DNA of 31,597 nucleotides, taken from a virus. Under the pieces are notes generated by a model. That model saw only the letters and a list, made by a program, of their open reading frames with translations, did no database searches and was not told where the DNA came from. The stretch lies in the IMG/VR virus record IMGVR_UViG_3300031673_000312, positions 1-31,597 of that record; one strand, 5' to 3'. This document shows, one piece after another, positions 3,001-25,856 of this stretch (the first letter of the stretch is position 1; each line of letters opens with the position of its first letter). Made by a program: the position numbers and the translations under genes.

Positions 3001-4872
3001 TATATATTTTATCTTAACGTGAACCCTTCTACCTATTCAGTAGGTGAGTTACTTGTTAGAGCAGGTGCTGGTGAGAATGCTTTCTTATTCTTAGCACAAC
3101 CGATATTGAAAGACTACGCACAAGCACATAGCAATTCACGTGGTAAGATACGTCCTTCTAGGACAAAACCACTTTCAGAGGTTAAAACTGCGTATAAGAA
3201 TTCATTAAACAACGCTATACGTAAGGAGAAACGAAGAGGTAGGGTATTTGTTAAGGAAGGTATATTTAATACTACTAGACTTAAGAAAGATATACACAGT
3301 AATACTTTAAAGGATGCAGATTTCTATGCAAGACAACTTCAAATATTAGATAAATTTAGCGAACTAAACAAACTTGGGCAGTTCTTATTTGAAGCAGTCG
3401 AAGCTGTACAGATAGACACTAAGAAGACTGGTAAAAACTTAGCAGAGTTACGTAGATTTAACAGACTTAAAAACAAAGTTCTTAACGACAATGTTATAAA
3501 GAATATGGATGTTATGTTTGAGGATACGTTTCTTAGCGCATACTTTGATAATAGTGTTGTACTTGGGCTTACTCTATTTAAGGACACTACAGTGATGGCT
3601 AGTGATGCTATTGTTGCATTAAGTGACCGTATAATGGATGAAATAGGTCGAAGAACAGATATAAGCAAGAACGCAGTTTATCAACTCAATAGTATAAACG
3701 ATGAAATATTCGCTGCAATTACAGGTAGGTTCATGGTTAATGAGCTAGGTGTTGATGAAGATGTACTTGAAGGTATGTTATACGGAAATGATTCTATGGT
3801 ATCAAGGCTTAACAATGTAAAAAACAACCCAAAATATGCTGGTAACCCTCTTATCAAATTATTACAACCTTCCATGTCGTTTAAAGATGTTGTACCTAAC
3901 TTTATTATAACCTTTACAGCCACAGACACTAAAACAAAATGGTCGAAAGATCGTATAATAGATGGTTGGTCTGAGTTACTTACGTCTAGTGATCCTGAGA
4001 TATCAAGATTTGCTAAAGATTTAGTAACCTATTCTTTCTTTACTTCAGGTTTTAGAAAGTCCTTGTACTCAATATTTAACTATATACCACCAGCTTATTT
4101 GAAAGAAGTAGGTTTCTCTGAGTATATAGGTAATATGCGTAATGGGTTCAATGACACCAGTAATTATGATTTGTTAGAAAGTATTCATGATGACGTGTTC
4201 CAAAATTTGTGGACAGAAGATGATATTGTTCCTAATGTACCATACGAAAGTTTTAATAACAAGCGCAGACCAGGTGTTAAAAGTGGTTGGGGTGAAAAGT
4301 ACCCAACACACGTTAGCATATCTAACAAGGCATCAGAGGAGTTAGCTTTAGGCTTGAATGAATTTGGTGTAGTTATATACAAACCTTTTATCAAGACAGT
4401 TATAAGTAAAACAAGATTACTTTATAAGTTTGTTGGTTATCTTACAGATGAGAATGGAAAGACAGAGCCGGTGTATGAACTATCACAACGTAAAGGTTAC
4501 TCTGACGCAGGTAAGATAGTAAAAGAACACGGGTTGCGAAGAAGTGTTATACCTACAAATAGAACTAAACAACTACCTGGTGGTTGGACTGATGAGATGG
4601 AGACACGTAGTATATATGGTACTGTTGCCTTTGAAGGTGAACCTGAAAAGACACAGATAACTTATGATTTTACAGGCTTCCAGAGGGTACTACCAGAAAA
4701 TATGACAATAGTTGAACTGTTTGAAGGTGATGTTGATGATACTTTAGAGGAATTTGAAGATAAGTATGCAGAACCAGTAGAAGTTGTTGAAGAGAAGCCC
4801 TTGTTATTAGAAGGTCTCACACAACAAAAGATTGATGAAGTAAAAGATGAACACAAAGAATGTAATTTATAA
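1..4872 (+). CDS. Giant virion RNA polymerase (crAss-like), 3' part, cut by the window edge
   Basis: The frame is open from base 1, so the GTG at 379 is only an internal codon and the true start lies to the left. About 1623 residues are visible. Bases 2080-2094 (visible residues 694-698) encode DFDID in the context GSDFDIDKLYF. This matches the DxDxD metal-binding loop of two-barrel RNA polymerases as found in crAss-like phages such as Cellulophaga phage phi14:2, where a giant single-chain polymerase is packaged in the virion and injected to transcribe early genes. A second conserved-looking block, KYLWGIKGIGPFARANVHHV, lies about 230 residues later and may belong to the other barrel. The C-terminal ~50 residues are acidic. 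The next gene starts 5 bases after the TAA. The polymerase call rests on the motif, size and context; the exact domain limits are not visible. Confidence 0.85.
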   Translation, partial: LAGLKPLDFDYIVAADGSLTLPKDIIDIFWGYAIDELHQIRRITNEIHYARTHGTEDSLKENIHYKLDAKTGNRNYADANGYKWQHFTDFNGKNITEGSLRGHVEKVLKDRIKDGLRFLDDAKLINVFENEKGVITNVTNRMFDETAIKKKAKESFNNIQPIAIRNKVANFTLNSIMATIEAEKIIFMSPVYYKNLEDKIKRYTVIASTGTVSRLSIPRDTMKGDRLLHNNDKFNYSILNTQTYDAKKLREDLRPKFVAKYMRNGMAVAEAEKRADRALSGFMEVDPSDGQAYITPEMFRALHIRLGEWNDVKEEAYKLLSVTERELTKKEQSVMDDLFMQPLKFGYFGPVINPGTMSPLYFKMSLATLTPRLVKGTMLQALYDSMTDSNSPKDMVLFDTAVKVGIGEKTTYYAEDANRQPITDSPNVADIVDMPSSTANFQYLRKQVVTDPHNELRTLVGTQFRKIALSNIIDDQTYIVGNKKVKGNKLKEDNKDLMSELSDRGVEEFLKVLGIDDETYLSDDPDKMYDMIRSKARLSGMPDAFIDAFAKQDDGERYEPDALPDRKWVQSSLLSMLAKKSVELHLPGTSLIQMTNFGLRKVEEDDSLKLIDENGFMEAKVSIEIFRDAIPNYNNLTHKQREDYINAQFTGIGYRIPTQGLVSTVPLKIVGFLPETSTATVVLPSEFTKLTGSDFDIDKLYFIRHNYSIIDGTPKRISFLTSDNSTLEERLEVYSHEAIAFEAKGIRKANLEVLTELFGRRTEASYEIKSIKSETDDLLDTEEDTDMSSPEFIEKRDSLRKEYNKAIQKGDNIKDIISNTRQEIEDEIEAIRKAWIKSNYKSFGKLSEIKQNTKKALENRLVDSYFAVLKSNDHVIDNYQPLDATTTLLKGLADDVSKWEGNDTELPSLYSASFMYQSEVKHKYLWGIKGIGPFARANVHHVLGQIAGIHLGNYIGVGNTKDFDGRQVTDLSQIYGQDGEAILDWLSALINAHVDIAKEPYIFYLNVNPSTYSVGELLVRAGAGENAFLFLAQPILKDYAQAHSNSRGKIRPSRTKPLSEVKTAYKNSLNNAIRKEKRRGRVFVKEGIFNTTRLKKDIHSNTLKDADFYARQLQILDKFSELNKLGQFLFEAVEAVQIDTKKTGKNLAELRRFNRLKNKVLNDNVIKNMDVMFEDTFLSAYFDNSVVLGLTLFKDTTVMASDAIVALSDRIMDEIGRRTDISKNAVYQLNSINDEIFAAITGRFMVNELGVDEDVLEGMLYGNDSMVSRLNNVKNNPKYAGNPLIKLLQPSMSFKDVVPNFIITFTATDTKTKWSKDRIIDGWSELLTSSDPEISRFAKDLVTYSFFTSGFRKSLYSIFNYIPPAYLKEVGFSEYIGNMRNGFNDTSNYDLLESIHDDVFQNLWTEDDIVPNVPYESFNNKRRPGVKSGWGEKYPTHVSISNKASEELALGLNEFGVVIYKPFIKTVISKTRLLYKFVGYLTDENGKTEPVYELSQRKGYSDAGKIVKEHGLRRSVIPTNRTKQLPGGWTDEMETRSIYGTVAFEGEPEKTQITYDFTGFQRVLPENMTIVELFEGDVDDTLEEFEDKYAEPVEVVEEKPLLLEGLTQQKIDEVKDEHKECNL

Positions 4873-4877
4873 CGACT

Positions 4878-7800
4878 ATGATTTGTCCAAATATAAATCT
4901 GCTAGAATGGCAGCAGGCTGTCAGTACTTACGATAAAGACACTGCTCTTGTCATATTTGACCAGTTAGGTGGTCGTGTTCCTTCTAAAGGGGAATTAAAT
5001 GTACTTGCTAAAGAAGGTAGTCTTGATAAATACCATAATCAAAGAGTATGGGATACTAATGTAGCGGAGAATCTTATAGATAAGGAGACGTGGAGTAGTA
5101 AAGATAACTTACCTGTTGTAGGGTTGAACTACTACTTTGAAAAGAAAGCTGCTGATAAGGTGCGTGATCTTAACATTAAGTATAAAGATGAAGATATTAC
5201 TTTTGAAAGGGGTGCCCCCAAAGGTAGGAAATTTCCTATACGTCCTATAGACGAACGTTTTGTAGGAGATTTGAACGAATTACATAACTTACATATAACA
5301 CGTAATATACAACGTGCCGACATTGCTGCTGATGAAGCTGCTCGTGTAGCTGAAACTGAAAGCACAGGTACTATGACATACAAAACACAACCGTATGCTG
5401 ACAAGACTGTGTTTAACAAACAAGATGTTATTGAAAGTCTAATTTCTGATCTTCACGAATCAGTTAAAGAAGAAATGCGTTCTGAAGTAGCACAGTTACC
5501 TAAAGATGTATTCAATGAAGAAGCGTCTAAGGCAGGCTACAACAGTGTTGGTAATTACTGGGTATTACACCCCGTGCAACGTACAGATGAAAGTCGTAAA
5601 CTAATAGGAGTTACTCAAGAAGAAGGAGACTTAGATCAAGCCAGGGAACAAATGAAATTGTTTCAGAAAGTAGTTCCCCATGTAGAGATGGTGTTGTTTG
5701 ATAAAACATTACCTACAATTGCTCAGGCTGATCCAGGAGGTAGGACTATACGTGTTAATCCAGATTTACTTACGAAGGATGCCATTGGTCATGAGTTTGG
5801 TCATATACTTATAGACTTACTTGGTGGTATGTCTAACCCACTCATACGTAAAGGTAGAGCACAATTAGAAGGTAAGGATGTGGAGACTGCTGTATTTGAA
5901 GCTTACCCAGATTTAATTAATAATAAAGATGGACGTGTAGATAAAGAAATACTTGCTACAGCCGTAGGTTTAGAAATAGTTAGCATCTTTAAAGAAGAAG
6001 AAGAACAGAATACTTGGATGCGTTGGCTCATACGTTTCTTCAGAGCGTTACGTAGTAAGTTAGGTATAGAAGCTTCAGTAGCTAGACAGCTTGCTGAAAA
6101 GCTTGTATCTGGTACCAAACTAGCAAGCAGGGAGAGAGCGACCGTTAGAGAGCTTAAAAAGGGCCTCTACGAGCAAGGCAGACCTTCTATATACACACAA
6201 CACAGTAGAGATCTTGGAAATTCTATGACTTTACTCGATAAGATGATTACCGAGGAGGAGATTTTCCAAAGGAAGGGTACGTTAGCTCTGCAAAAGAAAC
6301 TTGACGTTCTTGCAAAACAAGGCAAGGACACCAAAGAGTATAAGTCGTTAGAGGACATGTTGCCACGTATGCAAAATGCTAACCCAACAAAAGGTATAAT
6401 ACAAATGATTCGTTTTGCTGTACAATCTACTAAGCAAATGAATGACACATATCTTGCTTATGAAGCTAATGCCCGTAATGCGGCTAGAGAACATGGTACA
6501 CAGACACAAAACTATACTGCTAAACTATTAAGTGAGTGGCGTACGTCTGTTGCTGCTTGGGATATGCTGGAAGACTTGCGTACTATGTTAGATAGAACCA
6601 AAAGTGAAGTAGAAGTTTTTGGTGTAGATTCTGATCTGAGAGCATTGAACAAGTTATTATCAGAGAATAGAGATTTATTATCTCATGTTATAGACACTAA
6701 AGTTTTTAAACAACACATAAAAAATAAAGATAACATCTTAGATATGCTACTTCCTTTATTGGATCATGCTATATCTGTTAAAAATAAAATGCAATCTCTT
6801 TATATAGAAAAGGGTAAAGAACTGATGGTTGACTTCTTATTTCCTTTTGTTCATCATATTGAGATAGCTAAGCGTGAAGAATATGAAAAGGAATGGAGAG
6901 CTTTTGACGATAAGAAAAGAGCCGAAGTACCTATGGATAAGTATATACACGAAAAAATACTTAACAATACTGATGTTATTGAACAAGATACTAAGGATTT
7001 AATACTTAGAGAACTTGGTAAAGCTGAAGGGGATATTGGTATACTTACAAGATACGTAGACACTATATTAGATAGTAAGGATGTAATATCTTCGGCATTA
7101 GCTCGTACAGTATTTGGTATACACGAAGCAACTCGTAGGGAAGCACAAGCATGGTACTATAAGTTTTTAGATGTACTTGCACCACTAGAGAAACAACTTG
7201 GTCGAAGTGTTGGTATGGCTGATGAAAAGTTTTGGGGCTGGATACTTGAGACTGACCCTAAGACAGGGAGACCAATACAAAAAATTATATCTGCTGTTCC
7301 TAGTCAATTGATAGAGGACTTTAATGCTTACAAGGAAATGGTGAAGTCGGAATTGTATCAAGACAATAATGGAAAAAAGCCAAGTGATGCTGAAAAGCGT
7401 AAGCTTATACGTGATTGGATGGATAAAAACGCTAAAGTAGATAAGGAAGAACGATTAAAAGCATTTACTGAATTTATAGAGTCTTTACATAAGCGTAATA
7501 TAATAAGAACGGATGAAAAAAATAGATGGTTACGCAGTTCAAAAGTTACGTACACATCTTCAAAGACACCGTTGGAAGAAATATTTGCTAATCAAGAAGC
7601 TATAGAAGAAGTTAAGAGATTTGAAAGACAAACTTATTGGAATTTTAGAGAGTTGTCTCCGTTCTACAAGGAACTTAATAAAAAGTGGAATGCCTTGCAA
7701 GCCATGAGGGAAAACGGAATTAAATCTGGGAAACAAACAGATGCGAGAGTTATATTCTACGATTTTATATCTAATGTAATAGATGAGGCAGCTGTCCGAT

Positions 7801-9734
7801 TACCTAATAAGTACTCTTTATATAACGATCTTCCTTCAATGATGAAGGGTACAGGTCAACGTTACAGAGCTACTAAGATAATGGGCATGTCTAAGATGGA
7901 TTTTCTTAAGCATGAGTTTTCTGATACATTTCAAAAGAAAGCTTCTGACGTAGATAGAGGACTGTTAAACGCTGAACTTAATATTATAGGGAAAGAAGCA
8001 CTGGAAGAAGGTGAAGTCGAAAGTGGCGTAGAAAGAACGGCGTTAGTAAACGAAGCTAACGAACCTATATTCTTTTTACCTATCTATTATACTCAAAATC
8101 TTGCTAAAGACAAGAGTCATAAGATGTCGGTTGAAGATCAATCTTTTGATATTGCATCTTTATACTTTAACTATCTTAAAATGTCTATAGACTTTGGTAA
8201 TAAATCCAAAGTGTTAGCGGAATTAGAAATGACTAACTACTTTATAAATAACAGGGATGTTATACGTAGAGATAATAAGGGTAATATACTTATAGATGCA
8301 GCTACTAAGAAATTAAAAAAGGTAGGGGAAACATTACGAGATAAGGCTATCGTTGGGTCAGGTAAAAATTCTTTGATTGCAGCGCAAGTAATGGACTTTA
8401 TGAAGTTAAGTGTTTATGGTATGGAAAAGGATGAAGAACCCGATATGAATATATTTGGTTTTACTTTAGACCGTGCTAAGTTACTTGATACGATTAATGG
8501 TTTTACAGCCATAAATTTACTTGGTGTTAACTTTGTTGCTGGTATAGCTAACGTTAATTTGGGTGAAATAACTCAGGTTATTGAAGCTATGGCTGGTCAG
8601 TATGTTACATTGAAAAATTTAAAGGATGCCACTGGGTACTATTATAAGAACCTAGGAGGCCTTCTAACTGATATTGGGATTAGGAGACCAAGAAATATAG
8701 TAAGTCTCTTAAACGACCGCTTTGATACCTTGAGTGAGGAAATAGACGGCAAGATCAATTTAAATTCGAGATTTGCTAATTTAATGAAAACTAATACCTT
8801 ATTCTTTACTTCTCATTCTGGGGAACACTATATGCAGACAAGGTTTATGATAGCCATGTTAAAAAATTTAAGAGCATATGATGCCGAAGGAACTGATTTA
8901 GGGGATATGTTGAGCCAAATATCTGTTGATGAAGTAACTAACACATTAAAGGTTGATGAGAAAGTAGTTAACTTTACAGAAGAAGACCAAACAGACTTTT
9001 CTGCAAGGATGCATAGAATATTGGCAAGTATGCATGGTGAGTATTCTCAATTAGGTAAATCAGCATTACAACGTGTTGCTTTAGGCAGAATGGCGATATT
9101 ATTCCGTAAGTTTATAGTACCGGGTTTCAAACGTAGGTGGCAAGGTAGAGATCGTAAAAATAATTTAGATGGTATAAACAATTTACTTGGTGATTATCAA
9201 GAAGGTTATTACAGAACATTTGGTCATTTTGCTAAATTAATGTATAAAGATATTTTAAATTTTAAATTTGAAGCTGTAAGAGCACATGGTCGTTTAATGA
9301 CAAAGCAAGAACGTGCTAATCTTATAAGATTTACTGGTGAATTATCTTTTCTGATTATATCAATTATAATGGTAGGTCTTACATTAAAAATGAAAGGGGA
9401 AGATGATGATAAAGATGACTGGGTATTGAATAATTTAGCGTATCAAGCTTTAAGGTTACGTTCTGAATTAGCATTTTTCTGGAATCCTAACGAATCTATG
9501 AAGATTCTAAGATCACCTATGGCTTCAATGTCACAATTAGAAAATGTAATTAAATTGTTTGGTCAATTAGTATATCCTGTCACAAGTGGTACATTTGAAT
9601 TTGATGTGTACGAACGAGGTGCTTGGAAAGATCAAGTTAAACTTGCTAAGACAACTACTAGTTTATTACCTGTACTTAAACAGTACTATAGAATACGAGA
9701 TATTGGGGATCAACTTAGTTGGTTCCAACAATAA
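4878..9734 (+). CDS. Giant virion protein with zincin metallopeptidase motif
   Basis: This 1618-residue protein follows the RNA polymerase gene with a 5-base gap and no Shine-Dalgarno sequence. Residues 305-309 are HEFGH, the HExxH zinc-binding motif of zincin metallopeptidases, within DAIGHEFGHILIDLLGG; a plausible third ligand is the Glu in KEILATAVG about 60 residues later. The middle of the chain is long, charged and mostly helical by appearance. A hydrophobic stretch near residues 1488-1505 (LSFLIISIIMVGLTLKM) could span or insert into a membrane. In crAss-like phages very large proteins encoded beside the virion RNA polymerase are carried inside the particle and ejected with DNA, and a zincin domain is known among them. 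By position this is likely such a cargo protein; the protease target is unknown. The gene ends just before the terminator that closes the plus-strand block. Confidence 0.75.
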   Translation: MICPNINLLEWQQAVSTYDKDTALVIFDQLGGRVPSKGELNVLAKEGSLDKYHNQRVWDTNVAENLIDKETWSSKDNLPVVGLNYYFEKKAADKVRDLNIKYKDEDITFERGAPKGRKFPIRPIDERFVGDLNELHNLHITRNIQRADIAADEAARVAETESTGTMTYKTQPYADKTVFNKQDVIESLISDLHESVKEEMRSEVAQLPKDVFNEEASKAGYNSVGNYWVLHPVQRTDESRKLIGVTQEEGDLDQAREQMKLFQKVVPHVEMVLFDKTLPTIAQADPGGRTIRVNPDLLTKDAIGHEFGHILIDLLGGMSNPLIRKGRAQLEGKDVETAVFEAYPDLINNKDGRVDKEILATAVGLEIVSIFKEEEEQNTWMRWLIRFFRALRSKLGIEASVARQLAEKLVSGTKLASRERATVRELKKGLYEQGRPSIYTQHSRDLGNSMTLLDKMITEEEIFQRKGTLALQKKLDVLAKQGKDTKEYKSLEDMLPRMQNANPTKGIIQMIRFAVQSTKQMNDTYLAYEANARNAAREHGTQTQNYTAKLLSEWRTSVAAWDMLEDLRTMLDRTKSEVEVFGVDSDLRALNKLLSENRDLLSHVIDTKVFKQHIKNKDNILDMLLPLLDHAISVKNKMQSLYIEKGKELMVDFLFPFVHHIEIAKREEYEKEWRAFDDKKRAEVPMDKYIHEKILNNTDVIEQDTKDLILRELGKAEGDIGILTRYVDTILDSKDVISSALARTVFGIHEATRREAQAWYYKFLDVLAPLEKQLGRSVGMADEKFWGWILETDPKTGRPIQKIISAVPSQLIEDFNAYKEMVKSELYQDNNGKKPSDAEKRKLIRDWMDKNAKVDKEERLKAFTEFIESLHKRNIIRTDEKNRWLRSSKVTYTSSKTPLEEIFANQEAIEEVKRFERQTYWNFRELSPFYKELNKKWNALQAMRENGIKSGKQTDARVIFYDFISNVIDEAAVRLPNKYSLYNDLPSMMKGTGQRYRATKIMGMSKMDFLKHEFSDTFQKKASDVDRGLLNAELNIIGKEALEEGEVESGVERTALVNEANEPIFFLPIYYTQNLAKDKSHKMSVEDQSFDIASLYFNYLKMSIDFGNKSKVLAELEMTNYFINNRDVIRRDNKGNILIDAATKKLKKVGETLRDKAIVGSGKNSLIAAQVMDFMKLSVYGMEKDEEPDMNIFGFTLDRAKLLDTINGFTAINLLGVNFVAGIANVNLGEITQVIEAMAGQYVTLKNLKDATGYYYKNLGGLLTDIGIRRPRNIVSLLNDRFDTLSEEIDGKINLNSRFANLMKTNTLFFTSHSGEHYMQTRFMIAMLKNLRAYDAEGTDLGDMLSQISVDEVTNTLKVDEKVVNFTEEDQTDFSARMHRILASMHGEYSQLGKSALQRVALGRMAILFRKFIVPGFKRRWQGRDRKNNLDGINNLLGDYQEGYYRTFGHFAKLMYKDILNFKFEAVRAHGRLMTKQERANLIRFTGELSFLIISIIMVGLTLKMKGEDDDKDDWVLNNLAYQALRLRSELAFFWNPNESMKILRSPMASMSQLENVIKLFGQLVYPVTSGTFEFDVYERGAWKDQVKLAKTTTSLLPVLKQYYRIRDIGDQLSWFQQ

Positions 9735-23080: not shown

Positions 23081-23341
23081 TTAATGATCCCAGTGTTTTT
23101 TAACTACTGGGTTTGCTGGCATTGGCATACTTTTTACAAAGATACTACCAGCATATTCCATACATTCTTGTTGAAGTTTAGCAATCTCTTCGGTTCTATT
23201 GTCAACACATTCTATACTTGTTTCATCGTGTACAACACTAACAAGTTTAGCATCTGCTTCATTATCATAAGGCATTATACCTAATAAAAGGAGCTTTTCT
23301 CTGATCAGCACAATGGCTGTTTTTGTAATATCAGAGGCAGT
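23081..23341 (-). CDS. polA: DNA polymerase I, exon 2 (C-terminus)
   Basis: These 86 codons complete the polymerase after the intron is removed. They begin with ACT GCC TCT GAT, giving TASDIT, which joins exon 1 to form NTPIQG-TASDIT, the conserved family-A motif. VSVVHDE (H613, D614, E615 of the joined protein) is motif C, with the second catalytic aspartate, so without this exon the polymerase would be inactive. The apparent TTG start at 23344 is made of the last three intron bases and is not a real start. The next gene begins 11 bases after the stop. Confidence 0.9.
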   Translation of the reverse strand, partial: TASDITKTAIVLIREKLLLLGIMPYDNEADAKLVSVVHDETSIECVDNRTEEIAKLQQECMEYAGSIFVKSMPMPANPVVKKHWDH

Positions 23342-24131
23342 CAAATTATTATCTTATAGGTTCTTTATCCTATAATTCTACAAATTTATATTCCTTGTAG
23401 TTTGGACTATTTCATCAAATAACCACTCATGTTAGAACAGAAAGTATACAATTCCTCAAAAGAGGCGTCATTCTTCATAGTGTTAGCTTTTTTAGATACT
23501 ACTTGTATATTACCAGGAATATAACCAAGACTGGGTACTAACCTGTCTATTGTAGGTGAGTAACGATCTCTATCAAAAGGAACTTTTAATAAAGGACACT
23601 CTGTTGGTATTATAATATCTTTTTTACTGATTAAGAAAGGTATATTTCGTTGTTTACATCTGGAACGTGTAGCATAAAATAATCTTTTTTCTACATCTTT
23701 CCAATAGTATACTTTCTTTTGCTCACTAATGTGTTTTTTATACAATAAATCTGTTCTTAATCTATCTTTTCGTTGTTTAGATGTCCTATCTTTAGTACGT
23801 TCACGTATTTCTTTTGTAATAATACGTTTACATGATTTACAATAACTATCTAAACCAGATGAAGAACAAGAATTTTTATAAAAATCACTTTTACTTTGTT
23901 CTTTTTTACATTTTGCACAAATCTTCATAACAATTGTTTTTCTATTATACGAAGAAAATCACAAAAAGTTTCATTCATGGGTGTTTATTTGTTCCGCGCT
24001 CGTGGGTTTTTACCATCCTAATAAGGATTCCATAACCTAGTCTCTGCACTTTTCTTACATTACTATAAGACTTAGCTCAAGATTAGCATTTCAGCCTTCC
24101 TTGAATTCACGGAATTTATACAGGGCCACTG
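23342..24131 (-). mobile_element. Group I intron (790 nt) in the DNA polymerase gene
   Basis: P1: the 5' exon end CAGGGT (24132-24137) pairs with GCCCTG (24121-24126), with a U-G pair at the splice site. P10: the first intron bases CAGT pair with the 3' exon start ACTG. P3: 24109-24115 with 24027-24033. P4: 24099-24104 with 24077-24082. P7: GACTA within AGTGCAGAGACTAGG (24036-24050) with TAGTC (23405-23409). P9: 23378-23383 with 23395-23400; P9.1: 23355-23360 with 23369-23374. The last intron base is G (23342). The Q-like AATCTTGAGCTAAG and R-like GTGCAGAGACTA segments are typical of group I cores. An HNH gene fills the region between R and S (the P8 side). Splicing restores the polymerase frame. 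Confidence 0.92.
23407..23928 (-). CDS. Intron-encoded HNH-type homing endonuclease
   Basis: The 173-residue protein lies wholly inside the group I intron. Two N-terminal CxxC pairs (CAKC at residues 4-7 and CKSC at about 31-34) form a likely zinc ribbon. The middle is strongly basic (Lys/Arg-rich, residues 38-90). The C-terminal part, with CPLLKVPFD, SPTIDRL, GYIPGNIQVVSKKANTMK, matches the intron- and phage-type HNH endonucleases with the pattern DR...GY..GN...VS..AN..K. Its job would be to cut intron-less polymerase genes and copy the intron into them. Its TAG stop (23407-23409) lies within the intron's P7 3' strand. Translation may depend on unspliced or intron RNA. Confidence 0.88.
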   Translation of the reverse strand: MKICAKCKKEQSKSDFYKNSCSSSGLDSYCKSCKRIITKEIRERTKDRTSKQRKDRLRTDLLYKKHISEQKKVYYWKDVEKRLFYATRSRCKQRNIPFLISKKDIIIPTECPLLKVPFDRDRYSPTIDRLVPSLGYIPGNIQVVSKKANTMKNDASFEELYTFCSNMSGYLMK

Positions 24132-25856
24132 ACCCTGAATTGGAGTATTCATTGCTCTACGTTCAATATTACCAAGTGTCTTCATAAAAATACTTGATTC
24201 TTTGAATGTACGATGTGTTTTGTTTTTTAAATCTTGGTATTCCTTCCAATACCTGAAATGTCTAATACGATTTGTGATAGGATTAGTTCTTATGAAACCA
24301 TTATCTAATGCAAATTGTTTACTGGTATCAAACATTTGTTTTAGTTTTGGGAAACTGTTAAAGAAAGAGTCAATTAAGACTTGAGCATCAGTTTGAAGTA
24401 TTTTTAAATTTTTTGAAAGGGTAAATGCTGAAGCACCAAAGTTTATAGAAAAATTAAGTATTTTACCTTTCTGTCTATATTCCTTGTTCTCATTTGTGGC
24501 TGTAACTATAAATTCTTTCCCAAATACGGCTGAAAATATTTTTGTAGCAATGTATGAATGTATGTCACCACTACCTTTTAAAAAGAAGTCTATATAAGAC
24601 TCATCGTTTGCTTTGTCCGCAATAATTCTAGCTTCCTGTGATGAATAATCTGCAGTGATTATTTGTCTCCCTTCAGGAGCTTCAAAAGCAGCCCTAAAAT
24701 CAATTTCTTTAGGTATCTGCTGTAGATTTGGAGACCTTGAGGATATTCTTCCTGTCTCAACAATTTGGTTATATTGAGTACGAATCCTCCCGTCTGCGTT
24801 TTGATATTTTTGTAAATATTTCTCACCAAAAGAGTTAACTGCTTTCTCTTCTTTACGCAGTTGTAATAAAAGTGTAGTAATCTCATGTTTTGATGGTAGT
24901 AACGCAATGGCTACTGCACCAGAACTGGCTTTCCCATGTTTATCTTTGGGATTTAAACTAAACACTTTATTTAATATTTCATATACTTGTTTATCACTCC
25001 CCCAATTTATAAAGGTCAATCGTTTCGATTCATATGAGGGATCAAAGAGATCAGTTTGATGTGCGTCTAATTTATACTTTCTAGCAATCTTACCTTCTTG
25101 ATTTAAAATTAAATCATCTAGCTTTCTAGCAGTATTTATCACACGTAATTTATAGGCTTCATTTATATCTAACCATTTCTGGTTGTTTAAATTAAACCCG
25201 TTATATTCAATATCACCTAAAGCTAAAACTACTTTATTTTCTAAGTCAATACAAGGTTGTAAATTATATTTATTTATTAACTCCTGTTGTTTGACTTTTA
25301 TTTTAAGTGGAAATACAACATCAAGTGCTCCATACATAACCTGTTGGTATGTAAAAGGTTCTTGTTGAACCTTATGAAACTGCTGACGTGTTTCTTTATC
25401 TATTGTTTCATTAAAATAGTATTTGTATACACCAGCTAATGAAAATCGGTGATATTTTTTTAGATACCCTATATCGTATATCCCGTTATAAATAACTTGA
25501 TCTACTACCATAGTATCATAAACGTTTTGTAATAGTATTTTACGTGTTTTTAAGACATTATAATCAAACTTAATGTTATGACCTATGAATACACGTTTGG
25601 GGTCTTCTAACAGGTTCCTAAAGCGTTCTGTGGGTATATTACGCATGTCGAAGACAAATTGGTCTTCATCGGTACCTATTTGAAGCATTAATAATTCTGA
25701 AGTGCGTGTATTAAGACCAGTAGTTTCTGTATCTAATGCTAATAATAAATGTTTATTTAGTAATAATAATGCGTCATCTAAAGAAAATGTTGTATCTATA
25801 TTCTTATTAGTCCATAAGCTCTTCGTCTGAGAGCAATGTTGAATAAGGTAGATCAT
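24132..25856 (-). CDS. polA: DNA polymerase I, exon 1 (3'-5' exonuclease and most of the polymerase domain)
   Basis: Exon 1 encodes 575 residues. The proofreading domain is intact: LALDTETTGL (D42, E44), IGHNIKFD (D98) and YGALD (D179). The family-A polymerase follows: TGRISSRSPNLQQIP (about 368-382), motif A ADYSSQEARI (D403), and the O helix RQKGKILNFSINFG (R461, K465, with Phe at 469 and 473). It ends with RRAMNTPIQG. Unspliced, the frame runs 19 more codons to a TAA at 24072-24074, giving a product without motif C. Joined to exon 2 it gives 661 residues, normal for a phage Pol I lacking the 5' nuclease. The start overlaps the previous gene by 50 bases; it is the only ATG ahead of the exonuclease motif. 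Confidence 0.92.

Follow-up and report, generated by a model that had tools for sequence, protein, structure and literature searches.

In the IMG/VR virus record analyzed here (31,597 bases, hereafter the window), the gene of a family A DNA polymerase (polA) is interrupted within NTPIQG|TA (the bar marks the insertion point), raising the question of what the insert is and whether the two parts of the gene still yield one protein. The explanation that best accounts for the locus as a whole, and in which we place very high confidence on sequence grounds, is a group I intron that splits polA, would be removed by splicing, and probably homes by means of an HNH-like endonuclease ORF within it. Exon 1 matches Pfam DNA_pol_A (E = 7e-51) as well as DNA_pol_A_exo1, is 50-66% identical to relatives, and ends at position 303 of the DNA_pol_A profile, of which exon 2 spans positions 304-380. 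Joined across the limits given by the original prediction (23342-24131), which proved exact to the base, the exons connect in phase 0 and yield a 661-aa polymerase without a stop codon, restoring NTPIQG|TASDIT and returning motif C (VVHDE) to the protein as had been claimed. Alignment to intron-less polA relatives, which the original prediction had named as a check, found 10 IMG/VR loci (50-66% identical) contiguous across the site; in the intronless relative L001, the empty-site nucleotides read ACTCCTATACAAGGT|ACTGCTTCTGAT. The site is conserved, as predicted, and the same base is used by an intron in a second phage (L013). Group I introns generally favor conserved sites, and it has been argued in print that hosts are hardly able to change such sites (PMC2814812). 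The features of the locus are listed in Table 1.

Table 1. Coordinates of the polA exons, the intron, its helices, and its ORF in the window
Feature	Positions	Strand	Evidence or remark
polA exon 1	24132..25856	-	575 codons; encodes the 3'-5' exonuclease domain and the family A DNA polymerase domain as far as NTPIQG
polA exon 2	23081..23341	-	86 codons; TASDIT...VVHDE...HWDH, motif C
Group I intron, 790 nt, subgroup IA-like (P7.1/P7.2)	23342..24131	-	RF00028, covariation over 4 introns, empty sites
P1: exon CAGGGU (24137-24132) and IGS GCCCUG (24126-24121)	24121..24137	-	Sequence; U.G pair at 5' splice site
P10 strand CAGU	24128..24131	-	Pairs with ACUG, first four bases of exon 2 (23341-23338)
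P3 5' strand UUCCGUG	24108..24114	-	3' strand CGCGGAA, 23998-23992
P4-P5 hairpin, UCAAG/CUUGA and GGC/GCU	24077..24104	-	Rfam match, hand alignment, RNAalifold
P6-P6a hairpin	24048..24076	-	Hand alignment, RNAalifold
P7 5' strand GACUA	24038..24042	-	3' strand UAGUC, 23409-23405
P7.1/P7.2 insertion between P7 and P3'	24005..24037	-	GGUU/AACC; 2/4 columns covary
P8: CAAAUAA (23991-23985) with UUAUUUG (23422-23416)	23416..23991	-	ORF in its loop
173-aa intron ORF, HNH-like endonuclease (putative)	23407..23928	-	P8 loop; stop UAG in P7'
P9 CUACAA/UUGUAG	23378..23400	-	Hand alignment, RNAalifold
P9.1 UUAUAGG/CCUAUAA, conserved loop AUAAAGAR	23354..23375	-	5/7 columns covary; RNAalifold

The covariance search that had likewise been proposed bore out the group I assignment with a minus-strand match of a 1.1-kb stretch to Rfam Intron_gpI (RF00028; model positions 47-158, 44 bits, E = 1.1e-9; E = 7.6e-12 in a one-genome search), although this score lies under the curated gathering cut-off of 50 bits, a limit used in searches that does not itself define the structure. 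At that threshold, an Rfam scan of the full window reported nothing. The score is sub-threshold because the ORF in P8 separates the two halves of the ribozyme. After removal of the ORF, the intron gave a fold z-score of -3.55, with none of 200 shuffles as good. Every element listed in the original prediction (P1 with U-G at the splice site, a 4-bp P10, P3, P4, P7, P9, P9.1, and the terminal G at 23342) is present, and the helices are kept by compensatory changes. In a comparison of the window's intron with three related ones, in which helices were assigned by hand (one J7/3 base of cr116_1 was omitted, affecting no helix), 191 of 192 cells in 48 shared columns were paired and 32 of the 48 columns carried compensatory double changes. 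Both sides had changed in all five compared columns of P1, compensatory changes occurred in all five of P3, and all six of P8 covaried; P8' and part of P7' are also coding or stop sequence of the ORF. RNAalifold, applied to a MAFFT alignment of the four introns, recovered P4, P5, P6, P6a, P7, P9, P9.1, and, without prior input, P10 (24/41 pairs compensatory); P1, P3, P7.1, and P8 were not recovered in this alignment. P10 is re-formed in two of the three other introns despite different exons (UUGU/ACAA in cr116_1 and CUCAU/GUGAG in L034), and L013 has no P10 in the standard register. Together, the helix covariation and the re-formed P10 make it very unlikely that the structure arose by chance or is degenerate. 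A P7.1/P7.2 insertion is a hallmark of subgroup IA, the phage IA1/IA2 type, and its presence between P7 and P3' places the intron in this subgroup. Judged from their sequences, the three related introns settle the group I identification.

Two of these relatives were reached via the endonuclease ORF. The polymerase gene of L013 (IMGVR_UViG_3300027985_000661) carries a 780-nt intron at the identical base, with an ORF 54% identical to that of the window, and phage cr116_1 (L028:3280-4194) has a 915-nt polA intron inserted 7 nt upstream in another codon phase (NYPI|QSRGSA; P1 CCGAU/GUCGG). In the GenBank record of cr116_1, polA appears as two CDS around a hypothetical protein, and the intron is unannotated. 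The third, from the same family, is a 929-nt group I intron inserted at motif I of a phage DNA ligase gene on a 163-kb phage contig (L034:3263-4191; KIDG|VRC). No match to the intron region turned up in a direct DNA search of 50,697 phage records, and a viral-contig scan for the P7-to-P3' motif found the L013 phage only. That phage was also the sole real case among hits to a site-specific exon-plus-P1 pattern, the nine others showing stop codons or unrelated frames ahead of the site.

Other insertions were observed in these genomes. The L013 polymerase contains a second intron at motif C (4713-5596; VVHD|E; P1 CACGAU/GUUGUG, last base G) near the PhiI/W31 site, with a LAGLIDADG_2 ORF (4840-5529; E = 3e-18). 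In the same phage, a DnaB-like helicase is apparently split at Walker A (6349-7640; GTSG|KSS) by an insert that contains a GIY-YIG-like ORF (6593-7162) and is probably a third intron among neighboring replication genes. A polymerase insert at motif B in L014 (3800-4580) has an ORF that is 29% identical to the window's endonuclease and sited before P7; this is a distinct intron whose ORF is related.

The crAss-like host assignment of the original prediction holds, because a 1618-aa protein at 4878-9734 has its best matches among crAss-like phage RNA-polymerase-like proteins (E = 2e-105); matches of the window polymerase also include many Crassvirales. In the polymerase tree, the window grouped with intronless L001 (100/98) and L013 with intronless L004-L007 (99/99), so that the two same-site carriers belong to separate supported clades and each has intronless sisters. 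The distribution of the intron is therefore patchy, which homing or repeated loss would predict.

The 173-aa ORF in P8 (read from 23928 to 23407) was unmentioned in the original prediction, and its presence rules out the implied view of the intron as a ribozyme only. Its layout comprises an N-terminal Cys zinc-finger-like motif, a long helix, and a bba-metal-like C-terminus, and it matched PHROG 3322 (endonuclease, E = 5e-30), PHROG 1035 (endonuclease VII, 5e-28), and, over residues 1-95, PHROG 2340 (1e-7). An AlphaFold2 model (pLDDT 85.7) has strands at residues 126-129 and 141-144 and a helix at 146-154. Foldseek with this model gave no E below 0.001, and neither a PDB sequence search with the ORF nor an NCBIfam search of P0001 gave a match. 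The sole Pfam match, a Dof zinc-finger, was sub-threshold and was rejected. A genome-contig scan for relatives of the ORF found one distant relative only. In phage records, some relatives bear the names 'Srd anti-sigma factor' or 'decoy of host sigma factor', probably through misannotation.

All five aligned ORF relatives have D128-R129 where Asp-His is expected in an HNH nuclease, and the usual catalytic His is absent; motif spacing and the model suggest that R129 is equivalent to the His position. This Arg leaves cleavage activity uncertain, and nuclease activity of the product is, from its sequence, plausible but not assured. Splicing could thus be real while the product is not an active homing endonuclease but a decayed nuclease, a maturase, or a protein with another DNA-binding role, the intron being inherited vertically and lost repeatedly. 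Such a history would fit the Arg substitution and the modest best structural matches, which are nevertheless HNH nucleases (PacI, Z = 6.3; Gme HNH, Z = 4.1), but we consider it rather unlikely given that the ORF is intact, that even distant relatives share its D-R, GY, N, and AN residues, that carriers are scattered among intronless polymerases, and that the same family is present in another gene, that of DNA ligase. Homing driven by the 173-aa HNH-like protein is, on these features, very likely.

Loss of splicing in a degenerate group I intron, leaving the polymerase in two parts or absent, would agree with the Rfam score under the curated cut-off. We regard this as highly improbable, however, since every core helix is intact, P7 does not vary among the four introns (hand alignment and RNAalifold), no helix pair is broken in the window, the terminal G and the U.G pair of P1 persist, and the exons join in frame. 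Moreover, exon 2 carries motif C, which is essential for family A polymerases. An in-frame insertion, an intein, or an assembly artefact has a negligible probability, because the exon 1 frame meets a stop codon within the insert, an independent contig (L013) has the same insert at the identical base, and the RNA structure of the insert is conserved.

For a spliced, homing group I intron, anatomy and covariation suggest that the transcript would fold around the P3-P8 core and that guanosine bound in P7 would attack at the U.G pair of P1. P10 would then align exon 2, and ligation would restore the polymerase mRNA. The HNH-like protein, translated from the P8 loop, may nick or cut, near NTPIQG|TA, the polymerase genes of co-infecting relatives that lack the intron, and repair would copy the intron into the cut gene; the protein family and the distribution of the intron point to this cleavage and copying. 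We can also envisage, though with considerable doubt, a single IA intron lineage that moves among active-site motifs of replication genes (two NxPIQG positions and KIDG of the ligase) with an HNH-like endonuclease bearing Arg for the catalytic His, in which case the nuclease would use a changed catalytic mechanism. With two polymerase sites separated by 7 nt and served by different P1 helices, and with the copy in the ligase gene, a change of intron target becomes testable. These findings suggest that the family A polymerase genes of crAss-like phages harbor mobile group I introns that escape standard pipelines, through a sub-cut-off Rfam score in the window and split-gene annotation in cr116_1, and they add a polymerase insertion site to those that we found reported.

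Phage DNA polymerase genes interrupted by endonuclease-bearing group IA introns are well known. The window's site presumably corresponds to about residues 850/851 of E. coli Pol I (N-A-P-M-Q-G-T). In E. coli numbering, published polymerase sites are 674 (SPO1, SP82, Bastille, Pf-WMP3), 676 (phiL7), and 881 (PhiI, W31) (PMC3428280); the introns of LUZ24 and Leptolyngbya phage Lbo-JY46 mapped to motif B, and those of BSP18 and EW15 are apparently near motif B too, judged from polymerase match breakpoints. The site at about 850/851 is none of these polymerase sites, reported or mapped, in the phages examined. The SPO1, SP82, Bastille, and Pf-WMP3 introns (I-HmuI, I-HmuII, I-BasI, I-PfoP3I) are likewise family A polymerase group I introns with HNH-type endonucleases, likened here to the window's ORF by description, and differ in their site at residue 674 (PMC3428280). 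In vitro splicing is documented for the SPO1 and Bastille introns (PMC11878797), and the Pf-WMP3 intron splices both in vivo and in vitro. The Pf-WMP3 ORF begins in P6a and spans P7, whereas the window's lies in the P8 loop. PhiI and W31 also have phage DNA polymerase group I introns, but at site 881 in motif C (HDE) (PMC3428280), a place close to that of the second L013 intron and not of the window's. In LUZ24, a group I intron of the polymerase gene similarly contains an ORF for a bba-metal (endonuclease VII-like) nuclease (PMC6083498), but the intron lies at motif B and the ORF keeps the DHxH motif; a profile comparison of the window's ORF family with this ORF did not support kinship. Bastillevirinae polymerase introns carry endonucleases of PHROG 2340 (PMC11878797), the family matched by the N-terminal part of the window's ORF. 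A high density of introns, in PolB, MCP, and primase genes, is reported for some crAss-like groups (PMC7886860), and in PhiPA3 competition through an intron endonuclease has been demonstrated (PMC11620839). Finally, cr116_1 (MT774389; Crassvirales, Steigviridae, Pamirivirus faecium) likewise holds a homologous group I intron at the NxPIQ motif of a crAss-like polA, with an endonuclease in P8 that is 33.5% identical to the window's, and differs in its upstream site, its codon phase, and its own P1 and P10.
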